Shown here in pieces: positions 12,725-34,978 of a stretch of 64,000 nucleotides of DNA. Each line of letters opens with the position of its first letter. Position 1 is the first letter of the stretch. The DNA is from Fidelibacterota bacterium. Lineage in GTDB: Bacteria > Fidelibacterota > UBA8477 > JABMPR01. The notes beneath the pieces are model-generated. The model worked only from the letters and a program-made list of their open reading frames with translations, made no database searches and had not been told where the DNA came from. The position numbers were made by a program, and so were the translations under genes. The stretch spans positions 1 to 64,000 of the forward strand of contig JABIFG010000104.1 in NCBI GenBank assembly GCA_018650795.1, written 5' to 3'.

Positions 12725-13141
12725 TTAACTGGCCGCCGATTCACGCGGTTCAACGCGGATCTTTTTTCTGGAATTTCCGAACACAAATCGCTTAAAATTT
12801 GGCTTTTGACCAAAATTGATCAATAAGCCAATCTCAATATCCGTAGCTTTCAAATAGTTTAGTAGCTGTGCTTCATGTTCTGGAGCCAAGGCTTTCACGG
12901 CTTTGAGTTCTACAATCACTTTACTATCAACAACCAAATCAGCTCTATACAATCCAAGGTTTTGTCCCCGGAAGTAAACGGGGATGTCCTTTTGTCTCTC
13001 AACATGTAATCCAGAATCCTTTAACACGATTGCCATAGCTGATTCATAGACTGATTCTAAGAACCCAAAGCCAAGCTCGTTATAAACCTCATAATAAGCT
13101 TTGATGATTTTATCTGTTATTTCGCTATGCATTAATTTCAT
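12725..13141 (-). CDS. GxxExxY family protein, copy 1
   Basis: A 138-residue member of the GxxExxY family, whose function is unknown. The signature is LGFGFLESVYESAM near residue 22. The later segment YRADLVVDSKVIVELKAVKAL has the spacing of a D...ExK nuclease-like core, and EAQLLNYLKATDIEIGLLINFG closes the fold. A PD-(D/E)xK relationship is inference from this pattern. It shares the whole architecture with the copy at 22705-23100. The last 11 or so codons (IRVEPRESAAS) are encoded by the repeat arm that flanks the gene, and the opposite arm also supplies the stop codon of the upstream 2Fe-2S gene. The insertion splits two genes of one enzyme complex without breaking either frame. Confidence 0.88.
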   Translation of the reverse strand: MKLMHSEITDKIIKAYYEVYNELGFGFLESVYESAMAIVLKDSGLHVERQKDIPVYFRGQNLGLYRADLVVDSKVIVELKAVKALAPEHEAQLLNYLKATDIEIGLLINFGQKPNFKRFVFGNSRKKIRVEPRESAAS

Positions 13142-13171
13142 TTATCCGTGCCTATCCGCGATCATCTGTGG
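12733..13171 (-). mobile_element. Candidate GxxExxY element 1 with inverted triple-unit arms
   Basis: The GxxExxY gene is bracketed by imperfect inverted repeats at 12733-12760 and 13144-13171. Read inward, one arm has CCGAT-TCA-CGCGGTT-CAA-CGCGGAT and the other has CAGAT-GAT-CGCGGAT-AGG-CACGGAT: three related units at a 10-bp period, about 16 of 25 positions identical. The arms overlap coding sequence on both sides. There is no transposase and no clear target duplication, so mobility is inference. Confidence 0.5.
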
Positions 13172-13640
13172 CTCCTTCTATGGCATCCACAATTTTGTGA
13201 TAACCCGTGCAGCGACAGATATTGCCGGATAACTCGTACTTAATTTCATCTCGGCTGGGGTGAGGATTACGTTCCAGTAGTTTTTCACCGGTGAGAACCA
13301 TGCCAGGAATACAATAACCACACTGGACAGCATGATGGTCTTCAAAAGATTTTTGCATTGCTGTGAGTTCCTGGGTATCAGCCAACCCCTCAATCGTTAC
13401 GATAAAAGCTCCGTGGACTTCCACCGCCAGAATGAGGCAAGAATTTACAGTTTGTCCGTTTAGAATGACTGTACACGCACCACATTCACCCTCACCACAA
13501 ACCTCTTTGCTGCCGGTGAGTCTCAGATCCTCTCTCAGGAAATCCAACAGCCTTAGATGAGTTGGAATCTCTCGCTTAACTAGCTCACCATTGATGGTGA
13601 CTTCGAGTTGAAAGAGATGGGGATTTGGATGATGTAACAT
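13152..13640 (-). CDS. Molybdenum hydroxylase 2Fe-2S subunit (set B)
   Basis: Two-cluster electron-transfer subunit of the second hydroxylase set, 162 residues. Cluster ligands are CGEGECGACTVI with a following Cys (about 48-70), and CGYCIPGM plus CRCTGY near the end. The last residues after YHKIVDAIEGA (TDDRG and the TAG stop) are written by the repeat arm of GxxExxY element 1, so the original C-terminus has been replaced or extended by a few residues without touching the cluster domains. The catalytic partner is most likely the large subunit at 20352-22616, since no other large subunit lies nearby. Its FAD partner is 11901-12722. The gene begins 2 bp after the threonine-synthase-like stop, so the two are probably co-translated. 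Confidence 0.9.
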   Translation of the reverse strand: MLHHPNPHLFQLEVTINGELVKREIPTHLRLLDFLREDLRLTGSKEVCGEGECGACTVILNGQTVNSCLILAVEVHGAFIVTIEGLADTQELTAMQKSFEDHHAVQCGYCIPGMVLTGEKLLERNPHPSRDEIKYELSGNICRCTGYHKIVDAIEGATDDRG

Positions 13641-20351: not shown

Positions 20352-22616
20352 TCACTCACCTACCATATCTAAAATGTGTTCAGGCTTTATGGGGATATGA
20401 GCAACTGATTTCCCCAGTGCGTTACTTACAGCATTGGCTATAGCTGCGGCTGTTGGAATGATGGCTGGTTCCCCGATACCTTTCGCTCCCCAGGGACCTT
20501 CAGGCTCCGGATCTTCCACCAGAATTGATTCGATATCACCCACATCCATGGCCGTTGGCAAAAGATATGTAGTGAGATTGTCGCTTAAAACTTTACCTCC
20601 GCTAACTTTGAAATCTTCCGTCAGTGCCCAGCCGATTCCCTGAGCAGCACCACCTTCTATCTGAGCTTCCAGTCCAGCTGGATTGATGGCTCGTCCCACA
20701 TCATGTGAGGCCCAGATTTTAGCTACCTTCACTTGACCAGTGAGGGTGTCAACTTTGACCCTGGCGATGTGAGTCGCATAAGAATAAGTGAAATAGGCTT
20801 CACCGACTCCGTTGATGGGATCATAATCAAGTTCAGGAACATGCCACCAGCCCAGTACATCCATTGGGCGGTTGGATAAATAGAGGTAATTGCAGAGCTC
20901 TGCGAACCCCAGCTTCTCGGTATTCCTGATATTGCTTACTTCATCTTGCTCAATTCTTATTTCTTTCAGGTCGCATTGCATGAGTTCAGCTGCAGATTCT
21001 TTTAGAATAGGCAACAGTTTACCGGCTGCATCCCTGATGGCGTTTCCCGTCATGACTACATTCCGGCTGGCCACCGAAGGACCACTATCCGGCACTTTAT
21101 CCGTGTCAGTAGGCAATACGGTAATTCTGGAGGGCTCAACACCCAGAGCTTCTGCAGTCATCTGCTGTACAACGGTGAGAGCGCCCTGACCCATTTCAAT
21201 GAGACCAAAGGCAACTGAAATCGAACCATCACGATGGAGTTTGATCCTGGCTCCACTCCCATCCATAAACCAACCGGCCGCACCGAGACAATTGCCATAG
21301 TGAATCAAGGAGACTCCGTACCCGGTTTTCCAACGGGAGTCTTCTTCTACCTGACGATTTGTCCAATCACAAGCAATCGCAGCGGTATTCAGTGTCTCTT
21401 CAGCACCGACACTGCTGGTTAAATGGTGGCCAGTAAGGGTTTTGGTATCAACCTTTACAATATTGCTTAAGCGCAATTCTATGGGATCCATATCTAATTC
21501 TGTAGCAATGACATCCATCATCCGTTCATGGCCAAAGGCTGCCTGGGGAGATCCAAAACCTCGAAAGGCACCAGTGGGAGGCAGATTGGTATAGTATGAT
21601 TTGGATTCCACCGAGATGTTCTCGATAACGTAGGGACCCATGGCCTGCATGGCTGAGCGGTATGAGACTACTGAAGACAGAGTCGCATAAGCTCCGGCAT
21701 TTTCTTCAAGCTTGATTTCTGCGGCCAATAACTTGCCAGACTTTGACACCCCCACCTTGTAATGCATCTGAAAGGGATGGCGTTTGCTGGTGAGTTGAAC
21801 ATCCGTAGAACGATCGTAGACCATTTTGACAGGTCGTTTCAGAAGTACTGCTGCCAGAGCGGCCCGAGTGCATGTTTCTGAGGGAATATCTTCTTTTCCA
21901 CCAAATGCCCCACCAGTGGGTGATTGTTCTACACGAATTTTCGAGAAGGGGATTGCCAGAGCCTTCGAAACGGCTTTTTGAACATAGAATGGGCACTGAA
22001 TGGACCCAAGGATATCAACACCCCCATCAGAAGTCACTTGTGCAATACAAGCTTGTGGTTCGAGATAATAATGTTCTTGAAAAGGTGTTTCAAAACGAGC
22101 CTCAATAATGTGATCAGCTTCCTGAAAAGCACTTTCTGGATCACCTCGCTTGACCTGATGTTGACAGGCCAGATTGGTCTCGTGTAGGAAATTATCCTGG
22201 GCATCTCGACTCTCATCAATACTTAGTATAGGTGCAAATGACTCAGTTTTTACCTCAACCAGTTTTGAGAGTCGTTGGGCCGATTCAGGGGTTTTTGCGA
22301 TGAGTATGCCCACACTATCACCTATATAGCGAACTACTTGATCTGCTAGGAGTGGTTGATCTTCTAGAATTACTCCGACCTGATTTTCTCCAGGAATATC
22401 ACTCGCAGCAAAGAAGGCAACAAATTCGCTATCTGATTCCACCATAGTGGTATCAATGCCAAGTAATCGGCCATAAGGAATGGATGAATAAACGGGAGCT
22501 CCATGGACCATGTTGGCGACCTGGATATCAGTAAGAAACCTGGTCTCGCCCGTGGTTTTACCCCGAGCATCCACACGTTTAAGTCTGGTACCGATTATTT
22601 GGGAAGATTGTGACAT
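20352..22616 (-). CDS. Molybdenum hydroxylase large subunit, XdhD-like (set B)
   Basis: The second Moco-binding subunit, 754 residues. The N-terminal hammerhead is followed by GGAFGGKEDIPSET near residue 233, AFRGFGSPQAAFGH near 350, and GPWGAKGIGEPAIIPT near 715 with the catalytic Glu. It keeps the RGFG arginine that purine-oxidising enzymes use. It resembles E. coli XdhD in context: next to ssnA and in the ygfK/ygfM block. Its FeS and FAD partners are displaced to 13152-13640 and 11901-12722. The downstream ssnA start touches its stop, so these two are coupled. Compared with set A it has the more typical xanthine dehydrogenase motifs, which suggests this set handles xanthine or hypoxanthine. 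That is inference. Confidence 0.88.
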   Translation of the reverse strand: MSQSSQIIGTRLKRVDARGKTTGETRFLTDIQVANMVHGAPVYSSIPYGRLLGIDTTMVESDSEFVAFFAASDIPGENQVGVILEDQPLLADQVVRYIGDSVGILIAKTPESAQRLSKLVEVKTESFAPILSIDESRDAQDNFLHETNLACQHQVKRGDPESAFQEADHIIEARFETPFQEHYYLEPQACIAQVTSDGGVDILGSIQCPFYVQKAVSKALAIPFSKIRVEQSPTGGAFGGKEDIPSETCTRAALAAVLLKRPVKMVYDRSTDVQLTSKRHPFQMHYKVGVSKSGKLLAAEIKLEENAGAYATLSSVVSYRSAMQAMGPYVIENISVESKSYYTNLPPTGAFRGFGSPQAAFGHERMMDVIATELDMDPIELRLSNIVKVDTKTLTGHHLTSSVGAEETLNTAAIACDWTNRQVEEDSRWKTGYGVSLIHYGNCLGAAGWFMDGSGARIKLHRDGSISVAFGLIEMGQGALTVVQQMTAEALGVEPSRITVLPTDTDKVPDSGPSVASRNVVMTGNAIRDAAGKLLPILKESAAELMQCDLKEIRIEQDEVSNIRNTEKLGFAELCNYLYLSNRPMDVLGWWHVPELDYDPINGVGEAYFTYSYATHIARVKVDTLTGQVKVAKIWASHDVGRAINPAGLEAQIEGGAAQGIGWALTEDFKVSGGKVLSDNLTTYLLPTAMDVGDIESILVEDPEPEGPWGAKGIGEPAIIPTAAAIANAVSNALGKSVAHIPIKPEHILDMVGE

Positions 22617-22662
22617 ATTACTTAACGTTCATTGGCTATATGAGCCTGGATAGCGCCTTTTC

Positions 22663-23161
22663 TTTTACAACGAAATTAACGAAAATGACGAATTGCATAG
22701 TTGATCAGGTCTTTTCAGTTGATTGGTTAGATTTTGCATGGCGTTTGAATTGGAGAGGAATACGACCAAAATTAATAACGTACCCAACTTCCATACCTGA
22801 TGCTTTTAAATAGTTGATTAACTGTGCATAATGAGGTCTGGAAATATTTTCAACCGCCTTAATTTCAAGAATAATTTTCTCTTCTACGACCATATCTGCT
22901 ACATAAATACCGACGTTGTGCCCCCGAAAATAAACATCAAGTTGTTTTTGTTGATCAACAACCAAATCCTCTTCCTGAAGTGCAATAATTAGAGCATTTT
23001 CATAAACACGCTCTAAAAAGCCAAGTCCAAGCTCCTTTTGAACCTCAATGGCAAGTTTGATGATATTATCAGTCAGCTCTTTATATAAAATGGATTTCAT
23101 ATTACTCGTTTTGGAATCAATAAAATTAGTTCGTTTCGTTCGTAAATTTCGTTGTTAAAAA
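22663..23161 (-). mobile_element. Candidate GxxExxY element 2 with inverted triple-unit arms
   Basis: Arms at 22663-22698 and 23125-23161 are inverted. Read inward, the left arm is CAACGAA-ATTA-ACGAA-AATG-ACGAA and the right arm is CAACGAA-ATTT-ACGAA-CGAA-ACGAA, each preceded by a T-rich tip. The 9-bp unit spacing is exact in both. The arms enclose one gene and nothing else. There is no transposase, and no target duplication is clear. Confidence 0.55.
22705..23100 (-). CDS. GxxExxY family protein, copy 2
   Basis: A 131-residue GxxExxY protein: LGLGFLERVYENALIIAL near residue 24, YVADMVVEEKIILEIKAVENI near 85 and AQLINYLKASGMEVGYVINFG near 100. The D...E-x-K pattern again suggests a nuclease-like fold. 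It is clearly homologous to the copy at 12725-13141 but only moderately similar, so this is not a recent duplication. It lies between the adenine deaminase gene and the XdhD-like gene, in operon orientation, and is enclosed by inverted repeat arms of a different sequence type from those of copy 1. The function is unknown. It could be a passenger or the acting protein of a small element. Confidence 0.88.
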   Translation of the reverse strand: MKSILYKELTDNIIKLAIEVQKELGLGFLERVYENALIIALQEEDLVVDQQKQLDVYFRGHNVGIYVADMVVEEKIILEIKAVENISRPHYAQLINYLKASGMEVGYVINFGRIPLQFKRHAKSNQSTEKT

Positions 23162-23172
23162 CATTTAAAACC

Positions 23173-24822
23173 TCACCCTTCACTCGATTCAAAGGCATCT
23201 ATGAATTGGAATGTTTTGCCATCAAAGAGACCCTTGTCACTCAGTTTGATGTCTGGAATCACCAGGAGTGCCATAAAGGATAGTGTCATGTAGGGAGCAC
23301 CCAATTGGGATCCCATCTCCTTGGCAAGGTCATCCATTTCACCATAGCTTACACCTACCTTGAAAGCATCATCATCTGACATAATACCTGCAACAGGCAG
23401 GGGGAGGACACGTTCAGTCTTTTTGGCTACCGCTGCGATACCACCCTGGTTCTGAATGATAAGATTCATAGCTTTCGCCAAATCCTCATCCGAAGTACCA
23501 ACGGCGACAATATTATGGGAATCATGGGCCACTGACGAAGCAATTGCTCCTTCCTTTAGACCAAAGTTACGGATGAGAGCCACAGCTGGCTTAGAAAACG
23601 CATAGCGATTCAAAACGGCGATTTTAAGGATATCTTCGTCAGTATTTGGCTTAATAAAGCCATCAGAGTCTAATGTTGGGTGCCATGAATATTTCTTAGT
23701 GACCAATTGTCCATCAATAACATCTATAACCGGTACCCGATCTTGGCTTGATTTAATTCCAAAGAGTTGGGGTGTCTGGAGTTTTGCTTCAAATTTATTT
23801 ATTGGCGCTACAGCCTGAGAACCAAGTTTTGGTGTGCCATTTTCAGCCAGTAGCTCTCCATTGATATAAGTCGCTCTGACCTGAAAATTATCAAAATTGT
23901 CAACAAGAATCAGGTCGGCAGGATCACCCGTTTGCAGGAGACCAATATCCAGTTTATATGTTTTAATTGGTGTAACCGATGCGCTCCATAAAACCTTGAG
24001 TGGATCAACTCCTGCGGCGATGGCTCGTTTAACCATCTCATTGATATGCCCTTCAGCTAGATCGTCGGGATGTTTATCATCACTACAAAGCATACAATTC
24101 TCATAATGTTCATCAAGCAGGGGAATGAGATCATCAAGATTACGAGCTGCGGATCCTTCCCGAATCTGCACCTGCATACCCAAGGACAGTTTTTCCAGCG
24201 CTTCATCCAGACTAAAACATTCATGATCTGTCGTGATACCAGCCTCGACATACTTTTTAACAGCTTCACCACGCAATCCTGGAGCATGACCATCGACGAC
24301 TTTTCCAGCGGTTTTCGCTAGCTCTAATTTTTCTTTGACATCAGTAGCATCATTCAAAACGCCAGGTACATTCATCATTTCTGATAGACTGACGATATCC
24401 TCTCGCTGCAACAGGGCTTCAATTTCAGACGCAGTCAGCTCTGCTCCAGCTGTTTCGAAAGGCGTGGCCGGGACGCAGGAAGGCGCACTGAAATGGAACT
24501 TAAAGGGTGTTTGACTTGCATTATCCAACATGAACTCTACACCGTGAATTCCCAGTACATTGGCTATTTCATGTGGATCAGAGACCGTGGCGACTGTGCC
24601 GTGAATAACAGCAGCTCGGGCGAATTCAGTGGGAACCAACATGGAACTTTCAATGTGAATATGGGCATCGATGAGTCCGGGAAGAATGAGATGTGTTTCA
24701 GGAATAGTTTCTTCAACTACAGACTTAATTTTGCCGTTTTCAATATGTACGGTTCCAGAAAAAATGCGTTGATTTAGCACATCAACAATGTTGCCAGAGA
24801 GGGAAAAGGAGTTATATGTCAT
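23173..24822 (-). CDS. ade: Adenine deaminase
   Basis: Converts adenine to hypoxanthine and ammonia, feeding the purine pathway. The 549-residue protein has the Ade family features: LPGLIDAHIHIESSMLVPTEF near residue 48 (HxH metal site), TVSDPHEIANVLG near 80, HAPGLRGEAVKKYVEAG near 175, DHECFSLDEALEKLSLGM near 205 and CSDDKHPDDLAEGH near 250. The C-terminal Ade-specific domain is present (NRYAFSKPAVALIRNFGLKEGAIASSVAHDSHN). It is the first gene of the minus-strand block, so the main operon promoter is expected in the 246-bp divergent gap to the radical SAM gene. Only a weak GAGAA stands upstream of the ATG. Confidence 0.95.
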   Translation of the reverse strand: MTYNSFSLSGNIVDVLNQRIFSGTVHIENGKIKSVVEETIPETHLILPGLIDAHIHIESSMLVPTEFARAAVIHGTVATVSDPHEIANVLGIHGVEFMLDNASQTPFKFHFSAPSCVPATPFETAGAELTASEIEALLQREDIVSLSEMMNVPGVLNDATDVKEKLELAKTAGKVVDGHAPGLRGEAVKKYVEAGITTDHECFSLDEALEKLSLGMQVQIREGSAARNLDDLIPLLDEHYENCMLCSDDKHPDDLAEGHINEMVKRAIAAGVDPLKVLWSASVTPIKTYKLDIGLLQTGDPADLILVDNFDNFQVRATYINGELLAENGTPKLGSQAVAPINKFEAKLQTPQLFGIKSSQDRVPVIDVIDGQLVTKKYSWHPTLDSDGFIKPNTDEDILKIAVLNRYAFSKPAVALIRNFGLKEGAIASSVAHDSHNIVAVGTSDEDLAKAMNLIIQNQGGIAAVAKKTERVLPLPVAGIMSDDDAFKVGVSYGEMDDLAKEMGSQLGAPYMTLSFMALLVIPDIKLSDKGLFDGKTFQFIDAFESSEG

Positions 24823-33543: not shown

Positions 33544-34758
33544 GTGGATGTTGCCATCATCGGGGGGGGAGCAGCAGGCTATTTTTCAGCCATTTCTATT
33601 AAAGAGAATTTTCCCGATGCCACGGTAGTTATTTTTGAAAAGACTCGTCACCCTCTAGCCAAAGTCAGGATTTCCGGTGGGGGCCGCTGTAATGTTACCA
33701 ATGGCAATACATCTATCAGTGAACTTGCCAAGGCTTATCCCCGTGGTAAAGCCCTCATGAAACAAGCACTGAGAGTATTTAACACCAAGCACACCATGGA
33801 ATGGTTTGAATCCAGAGGTGTGCCCCTCTTTACCCAGGATGACATGCGCGTTTTTCCCGTATCCCAGGATTCAAGTAGCATTGTTGATTGTCTACTGGAC
33901 CAGGCGGAAGACCTGGGTATTGTATGTGAGTTCTGGTCAGGGATTGAGAGGATCTCAAAAATTAGTAATCAGCTAGAGCTACATTTTACCAGACAGGATT
34001 TACCCCCCAGAAATTTTGACAAGGTGATTATAGCAAGTGGTGGGTCACCCCGACCTGAGGGGCTGAAATGGTTGGAAAAGTTAGGTCATGAGACCGTTGA
34101 GCCCGTGCCTTCCCTGTTTACATTTAATATGCCCAATGAATCCATTGTTGAGCTAACAGGTGTTGCAGTAAATCCTGTGTTGGTCAGTATTCCTGGAACC
34201 ACCTTAAAAACCAGAGGGCCACTGCTCATCACACATTGGGGCTTGAGTGGTCCTGTCATTCTGAAGCTTTCGGCTTTCGGAGCCAGAATCTTTAATGAAA
34301 AGGACTATAATTTCGAGCTACTGGTAAACTGGGTGGATCAAACAAATCATGAACTGGTTTTGGATCAACTAAATGCTACTATCACTGGACACTCACGTAA
34401 ACTTTTACCCAATATTCGACCGTTTGGATTACCTGACAGACTGTGGCGTTATCTGATACAAAAAAGCGAGTTATCGTTAACCAAGCAGTGGGGAGAACTT
34501 GGGAATCGAGGAATGAACAAGCTAGCAAGTGTCTTAACTAATGATATGTACTCTGTTTCTGGAAAAACAGGCTTTAAAGATGAATTTGTGACCTGTGGGG
34601 GTGTGAACCTCGAGAGTATTGATGCTAAAACCATGCAAAGCAAGGTCTGTAAAAATCTATATTTTGCCGGGGAAATTCTGGATATAGATGGCATTACGGG
34701 CGGCTATAATTTCCAGGCAGCCTGGACGACTGCATATATTGCAGGAAAGCTTAATTAG
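33544..34758 (+). CDS. HI0933/BaiN family flavoprotein, copy 1
   Basis: FAD-dependent oxidoreductase of the HI0933 family, 404 residues. DVAIIGGGAAGYFSAI at the start is the FAD dinucleotide-binding loop. KVRISGGGRCNVTNGN near residue 42 is the family signature, and FAGEILDIDGITGGYNFQAAWTTAYIAGK closes it. The start is GTG at 33544. Members include bile-acid-related BaiN, but most have no known substrate. A second member lies at 54241-55509 with clear but moderate similarity. This copy follows the pseudouridine synthase gene closely, so they may share a transcript. Confidence 0.9.
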   Translation: MDVAIIGGGAAGYFSAISIKENFPDATVVIFEKTRHPLAKVRISGGGRCNVTNGNTSISELAKAYPRGKALMKQALRVFNTKHTMEWFESRGVPLFTQDDMRVFPVSQDSSSIVDCLLDQAEDLGIVCEFWSGIERISKISNQLELHFTRQDLPPRNFDKVIIASGGSPRPEGLKWLEKLGHETVEPVPSLFTFNMPNESIVELTGVAVNPVLVSIPGTTLKTRGPLLITHWGLSGPVILKLSAFGARIFNEKDYNFELLVNWVDQTNHELVLDQLNATITGHSRKLLPNIRPFGLPDRLWRYLIQKSELSLTKQWGELGNRGMNKLASVLTNDMYSVSGKTGFKDEFVTCGGVNLESIDAKTMQSKVCKNLYFAGEILDIDGITGGYNFQAAWTTAYIAGKLN

Positions 34759-34778
34759 AGTACTACTTTAAGCTCTTC

Positions 34779-34854
34779 TTTCACAACGAACCAAACGAAA
34801 TTCACGAAGACATTTAATGCTATTTCGTAATATTCGTCAAATTCGTTGTAAAAA
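34779..34854. repeat. Gene-free palindromic element with CAACGAA-type arms
   Basis: Left arm 34779-34809 reads inward CAACGAA-CCAA-ACGAA-ATTC-ACGAA. Right arm 34821-34854, on the other strand, reads CAACGAA-TTTG-ACGAA-TATT-ACGAA. The 9-bp spacing of three units is the same as in the arms around the GxxExxY gene at 22705. The arms are separated by about 11 bases and could form a long hairpin. It lies between the flavoprotein and the sulfatase. Confidence 0.75.
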
Positions 34855-34978
34855 TTGTAATAGCACCAGTAAAAAACTAACTTTATTGATAGACACTAAT
34901 TAAGCTGGATCGAAATCTAAGAAGAATCCAAGAATTGGAATAACTGCCAGTTCGGGCAGTATGGTAAAAGGGGTGTCC

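Follow-up and report, generated by a model that had tools for sequence, protein, structure and literature searches.

Arm sequences that follow the protein tree suggest an overlooked class of tiny mobile element at GxxExxY genes

In the genome of a Fidelibacterota bacterium, one small gene of the GxxExxY family lies between the adenine deaminase gene (ade) and a xanthine-dehydrogenase-like gene (xdh), and is enclosed by two inverted arms in which a short unit is iterated. This raises the question whether gene and arms form a small autonomous element in which the protein acts on its own arms, as was originally predicted from the letters of the sequence. We followed this up from the locus itself to its counterparts in relatives and in other phyla. 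In the following, the window is the whole stretch of DNA that was analysed (64,000 nucleotides, contig JABIFG010000104.1); its features are collected in Table 1.

The locus and its protein

Read inward, both arms follow the predicted pattern CAACGAA-N4-ACGAA-N4-ACGAA with exact 9-bp spacing, the 3'-side arm as CAACGAA-ATTA-ACGAA-AATG-ACGAA and the 5'-side arm as CAACGAA-ATTT-ACGAA-CGAA-ACGAA. The arms are 30 nt each and 80% complementary. The sequence CAACGAANNNNACGAANNNNACGAA occurred 19 times in the window's genome and its backwards-read version not once, so the arms of the window are far above chance. The neighbouring ORFs are those for adenine deaminase (23173-24822) and the xanthine-dehydrogenase-like protein (20352-22616), and the GxxExxY ORF is the only one inside the arms, as had been claimed: no second ORF was found there, and the profile matches were confined to TIGR04256 and PDDEXK_3. 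This single ORF encodes a protein with a predicted nuclease fold, and no transposase gene is present between the arms; ORF and profile searches of the element for an HUH tyrosine transposase (IS200/IS605 type) were negative. An Rfam search of positions 22000-24000 gave no match with E up to 1.

Table 1 Features of the window
Feature	Position	Strand	Basis
Second GxxExxY gene of the window, 138 aa	12728..13141	-	
3' arm of the 138-aa gene, units CGCGG(AT), overlapping the coding end	12731..12761	+	direct reading
5' arm of the 138-aa gene, TATCCGTGCCTATCCGCGATCATCTGTGGC	13143..13172	-	
Whole insert at the ade-xdh junction	22620..23170	.	comparison of relatives
3'-side arm of the 131-aa GxxExxY gene, three ACGAA units	22663..22692	+	direct reading
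GxxExxY gene, 131 aa, predicted RecB/Cas4-type PD-(D/E)XK nuclease fold	22705..23100	-	profiles, model
5'-side arm of the 131-aa gene, inverted copy, same three ACGAA units	23130..23159	-	direct reading
MITE-like unit around the solo pair, ends AGAGT.../...GACACT, AATT on both sides	34757..34897	.	
Solo ACGAA arm pair, 65 nt, gene-less; missing at the homologous place in seven relatives	34784..34848	.	

The 131-aa protein matched TIGR04256 (GxxExxY; E=1.3e-38, 132 bits, curated cut-off 35) and PF13366 (PDDEXK_3; E=4e-38, 130.8 bits, curated cut-off 22) over its full length. An AlphaFold2 model (pLDDT 91, pTM 0.83) had as its best PDB matches LHK-Exo, the Cas4 protein SSO0001, MGME1 and lambda exonuclease (3syy, 4ic1, 5zyu, 6m9k), with TM-scores of about 0.5 and only one E-value below 0.001; searches by sequence gave no convincing relative among solved structures (best E=0.018). 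In the family alignment E30, D69, K81, Q93 and Y97 are invariant, and E79 is present in at least 90% of the sequences. The pattern E..D..ExK..QxxxY is that of the RecB/Cas4/lambda-exonuclease branch, and the invariant residues of GxxExxY fit it, while the aligned family has no Fe-S cysteines. The protein can be confidently modelled as a PD-(D/E)XK nuclease of this branch, in agreement with the nuclease suggested earlier from a D...ExK pattern, and its fold implies that it may cut DNA. With the PADLOC defence-system models only a 38-residue match to PDC-M36A was obtained (E=0.0036), and membership of a defence system was rejected on this weak partial match. In one publication (PMC8934634) two pipelines named a gene differently, one as cas4 and the other as GxxExxY, which is in line with a Cas4-like fold.

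The window's genome, a 4.42-Mb draft in 355 contigs, was searched for further GxxExxY genes. Six genes or remnants were found, one with an in-frame stop and one truncated, and all six have iterated inverted arms; armless copies, named beforehand as evidence against the original prediction, did not occur. The units differ between the copies: ACGAA; CGCGGAT/ATCCGNG; CACGGATTACACTGATT; AACCGCNNAG-NNCGC (twice); and GCGCAGAGTCGCAGAG. These copies belong to different clades of the protein, each with the arm type of its own clade. Relatives contain up to 11 copies per genome, a number of them broken. The arm on the stop side may fall inside the reading frame, giving C-terminal tails such as TPRSQRTPR or VEPRESAAS (L009, L013, L032; window 12728-12761); these tails are repetitive because the 9-nt unit equals three codons.

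Arms across phyla and along the protein tree

A scan of GTDB species genomes yielded 80 GxxExxY loci from over a dozen phyla, judged by record titles. Arms were scored blindly: any 7-mer was chained, with at most 1 mismatch and a spacing of 8-10, in the 250-nt upstream flank and, reverse-complemented, in the downstream flank, and a locus passed with at least two units on both sides. Control sets consisted of 68 to 120 genes. Two-sided arms were detected in 67 of 82 GxxExxY loci and remained undetected in about one fifth, compared to 5 of 119 other genes from these loci and 5 of 68 controls chosen for intergenic space on both sides. The Fisher test against the latter gave P=1.5e-21, and a stricter 9-nt score was concordant (Mann-Whitney P=1.9e-11), P-values that correct for relatedness only incompletely. 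The arms are thus linked systematically to the family and do not occur at random beside it.

Measured from outer edge to outer edge, the elements have a median size of about 500 bp. An arm consists of 2-4 units, mostly three, of 5-7 bp at a spacing of 8-10 bp. The sequence of the units is not fixed, and most lineages have units other than ACGAA (CRCRRAG, CRCRRAT, ACAGGAT and so on). In Sphingomonas parapaucimobilis (L310) the gene is located between fabD and fabG and has CACGCGAAG arms, of which the upstream one stops at the ATG. Bacteroides finegoldii carries the family at a radA site. Carriage by phages or plasmids was rejected, with matches in none of 50,697 phage records, in 8 of 72,556 plasmid records and in 3 viral contigs.

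To relate arm type to protein phylogeny, 85 loci were labelled by arm type and mapped on the GxxExxY protein tree, and label changes were compared to those obtained with shuffled labels. The tree required 13 changes, against a shuffled mean of 33 (0 of 200 shuffles as low). A tree built from the first 106 residues of each matched stretch also gave 13 changes, a value reached in none of 300 shuffles, of which the minimum was 29. Within the window's own phylum alone there were 3 changes versus 10 after shuffling (0 of 300 as low), so host phylogeny does not account for the distribution. Since arm type tracks the protein tree, also within one phylum, arms and protein evolve as a unit. At the A/G-variable positions of CRCRRAG-type units, agreement was 0.72 between the arms of one element and 0.48 between elements.

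Such a pattern would be expected if each GxxExxY lineage reads its own DNA word. Because arm type follows the protein phylogeny, its own arms are most likely what the protein acts on, and we infer recognition of the arms from this co-evolution.

Occupied, empty and gene-less sites

The ade-xdh junction was compared in 16 genomes of the genus; most relatives share about 70-80% DNA identity, at which loss is not always separable from gain. The GxxExxY gene with ACGAA arms is present in G000, G009 and G004 and as a decayed copy in G001. The junction has no insert in G012, G010 and G018, and it holds a gene for a four-helix-bundle-like protein in G013, G007, G015 and G003. The other GxxExxY element of the window (the 12.7-kb element) is carried by G000, G012 and G013; part of it is deleted in G004, a single arm is left in G007, and G009, G010 and G018 lack it. 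Each of the two GxxExxY elements in the window therefore has empty sites in relatives. An ade-xdh junction identical in all relatives had been named as a result against the original prediction, and this is not what was seen. The empty alleles of gene-bearing copies also lack the arms, except for the single arm in G007. It thus seems that gene and arms are gained and lost jointly, and presence and absence suggest that the element moves. Other solo pairs or clusters (G000:C120, G000:C213, G010:C148) have no counterpart in G018 or G009. The site at L279 was discarded as an example of an empty site; it contains too many nested repeats to be read.

The junction protein of G013 matched PF05635 (23S_rRNA_IVP; E=9e-28). 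PF05635 genes (L042, L043, L045 and L051 at ade-xdh, and L187-L215) likewise have iterated inverted arms, with a 7-8-nt period and units GTTTGGAA, AATTGTG, GGGTATAA and others. At a spacing of 6-8, two-sided arms were found in 20 of 28 PF05635 loci versus 8 of 120 controls. A period of exactly 7 nt was found in 13/28 PF05635 and 3/82 GxxExxY loci, and one of exactly 9 nt in 1/28 and 38/82, respectively. As both families sit in iterated arms, two small proteins that are unrelated to each other share one arm plan, each family with a unit length of its own. The S23 ORF of rRNA intervening sequences belongs to the same protein family as PF05635.

Arms also occur without a gene. The three-unit pattern CRCRRAKNNCRCRRAKNNCRCRRAK matched well over 100 times in 41 genomes, and its reversed control never. 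It was found in 28 of the 30 genomes that have GxxExxY and in 2 of the 11 that lack it (Fisher P=8e-6), and the latter two genomes are 63-65% complete. The ACGAA arms in the window's genome, 19 of them exact, are mostly paired, and several gene-less pairs span exactly 65 nt. Within the genus, ACGAA solo pairs were not found to co-occur strictly with genes of the ACGAA type; in some genomes with ACGAA solo arms no ACGAA-type gene was found. In 14 independent solo pairs the 4-nt spacers agreed at 12 of 112 positions, where 35 were expected. The ends of solo pairs are thus unlike, and the units are kept rather than a continuous stem, possibly through avoidance of perfect palindromes or because left and right ends are distinct. 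These spacers make it less likely that the arms form a perfect RNA or DNA stem; the ACGAA units would still permit a hairpin.

The solo pair of the window is contained in a MITE-like unit that has ends of its own (AGAGTCTGTCTTTAAA / AACTTTATAGACAGACACT) and occurs in four related copies in the window's genome (the window copy, L265, L269 and L270), and it probably moved as part of this MITE. It was therefore not counted as arm-driven movement, and its use as proof of arm-driven insertion was withdrawn. A candidate target-site duplication (AATT) is seen only at this unit, the gene-bearing copies being too diverged among relatives. Further arrangements were noted. At L267 (about 690-770, G000:C120) an (ACTTCTA)n heptamer array follows a solo ACGAA pair, and G018 lacks both. 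In G012 a different solo pair occupies the same junction, so intergenic sites take several element types. At L179 (1-480, G021:C252) single ATTCGTG-type arms form a tandem array of four, in which the unit measures about 97 nt.

Candidate readings and known systems

Arm spelling that matches the protein tree points to a class of very small mobile elements that may have been overlooked. The best reading, which we put at about an even chance, is that the GxxExxY locus is one copy of a widespread mobile element of ~500 bp, with a nuclease gene between inverted arrays of its own recognition units. It would be a nuclease-armed, REPtron-like element that recognises its own arms and has gene-less derivatives. 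Several GxxExxY protomers would bind side by side to the direct units of one arm, the two inverted arms would be brought together, and the nuclease would cut or trim DNA at the ends of the element or at arms elsewhere, after which host repair would copy or insert the element. Gene-less pairs and single arms would be by-products that are not autonomous and that the protein recognises in trans. Remnants in the form of decayed, truncated and single-arm copies speak for this reading. Against it count the lack of a recombinase or transposase signature in the element, the loci in which two-sided arms were not detected, the ACGAA solo arms in genomes in which no ACGAA-type gene was found, and the solo pair of the window, which probably moved with a MITE.

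A selfish nuclease of the homing type, which cuts a gene-less arm pair so that repair copies the gene in, the arms themselves spreading by other means, would explain why the arm pair around the gene matches it in type, why gene-less pairs are numerous and why the only protein is, by fold, a nuclease and not a recombinase. The empty sites of gene-bearing copies, however, lack arms too, save for the single arm in G007, and we consider this explanation unlikely. It is decidedly unlikely that the arms are immobile operators or RNA-binding sites through which the gene controls itself, with solo arms as decayed remnants: the arms do abut the start and stop codons, and the same co-evolution with the protein would appear, but self-control has no need of an inverted site after the stop codon, nor does it fit the many dispersed arms or the empty sites in relatives.

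The unrelated PF05635 family in arms of similar architecture, and the ACGAA pair inside a MITE with distinct ends, could mean that the arms are ends moved by another protein and that GxxExxY is their cargo, for instance a defence nuclease. Yet cargo should not dictate the ends of its carrier, whereas arm type follows the GxxExxY tree within one host phylum and the unit periods of the two families differ, which makes this reading very improbable. Intergenic DNA often contains short iterated repeats, but that chance or ordinary repeats beside GxxExxY genes explain the arms is hardly credible given 67/82 versus 5/119 and 5/68 and a reversed pattern that never occurred, and a one-off chance repeat was rejected on the same counts.

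If the mobile-element reading holds, a nuclease family of many bacterial phyla that lacks an assigned function would be given both its role and its substrate, we would know what probably makes common intergenic repeats (for example AACCACAGATTACACAGATT and AACCGCAAAGACGCAAAG), and a type of mobile element with a Cas4-like nuclease as its enzyme would be added. The pairing of protein clade and DNA word would be a natural specificity code, directly testable in vitro. The combination would be new provided that the nuclease is the acting protein; were it cargo, the element would be a variant of a MITE-like element. More tentatively, and at somewhat less than even chance, there may be an unrecognised superclass of mobile elements with iterated 7-10-nt ends, whose movers lie outside the known transposases and include at least two unrelated proteins (a Cas4/RecB-like nuclease at 8-10 nt and 23S_rRNA_IVP at 7-8 nt), and whose gene-less arms account for a large share of the short repeats dispersed in many bacterial genomes.

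We found no earlier description of GxxExxY-arm elements in the open-licence literature, and one may exist elsewhere. Searches of that literature for the arm words by exact sequence gave no relevant paper, and the passages of two papers that name GxxExxY do not deal with arms or a mobile element. The multicopy nucleotide sequences of Geobacter (PMC2996986) and heptameric repeats (PMC4692102) sound similar; the passages that describe them link no protein to them.

A close likeness is to REPtrons, in which the gene for a RAYT protein is flanked by inverted short repeats (REP elements) that are also dispersed without a gene and whose type is lineage-specific (PMC3733652); the GxxExxY gene, too, has repeats on both sides that also occur dispersed without it. 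However, RAYT is an HUH tyrosine transposase and REP a GTAG-tagged hairpin, whereas GxxExxY is by predicted fold a PD-(D/E)XK nuclease and its element ends in iterated units, the spacers of which are non-complementary in solo pairs. Identity with a REPtron was ruled out, as there is no HUH transposase. MITEs and their parent insertion sequences likewise have short inverted ends, gene-less copies, intergenic positions and occupied as well as empty sites, but the GxxExxY element has no DDE or other transposase and its ends consist of 2-4 direct units that change with the protein clade; an insertion sequence was ruled out by the lack of a recombinase. A homing endonuclease gene is likewise a lone nuclease gene, able in principle to spread via gene-less alleles. 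GxxExxY differs in having no intron or intein and in being a nuclease by predicted fold, and it is probably not a classical homing gene: gene-less arm pairs exist elsewhere, but the empty alleles at gene-bearing sites carry no arms. The intervening sequence in the 23S rRNA of Coxiella, which with its S23 ORF has been called a selfish element (PMC4990558), also has a small ORF between inverted arms, but its protein is unrelated, and the GxxExxY element is intergenic with an arm period of 9 instead of 7-8. Finally, with the RecB/Cas4/lambda-exonuclease branch GxxExxY shares the predicted fold and E..D..ExK..QxxxY, and it is set apart from that branch as a stand-alone protein of 131 aa, free of Fe-S cysteines and tied to its own DNA arms.
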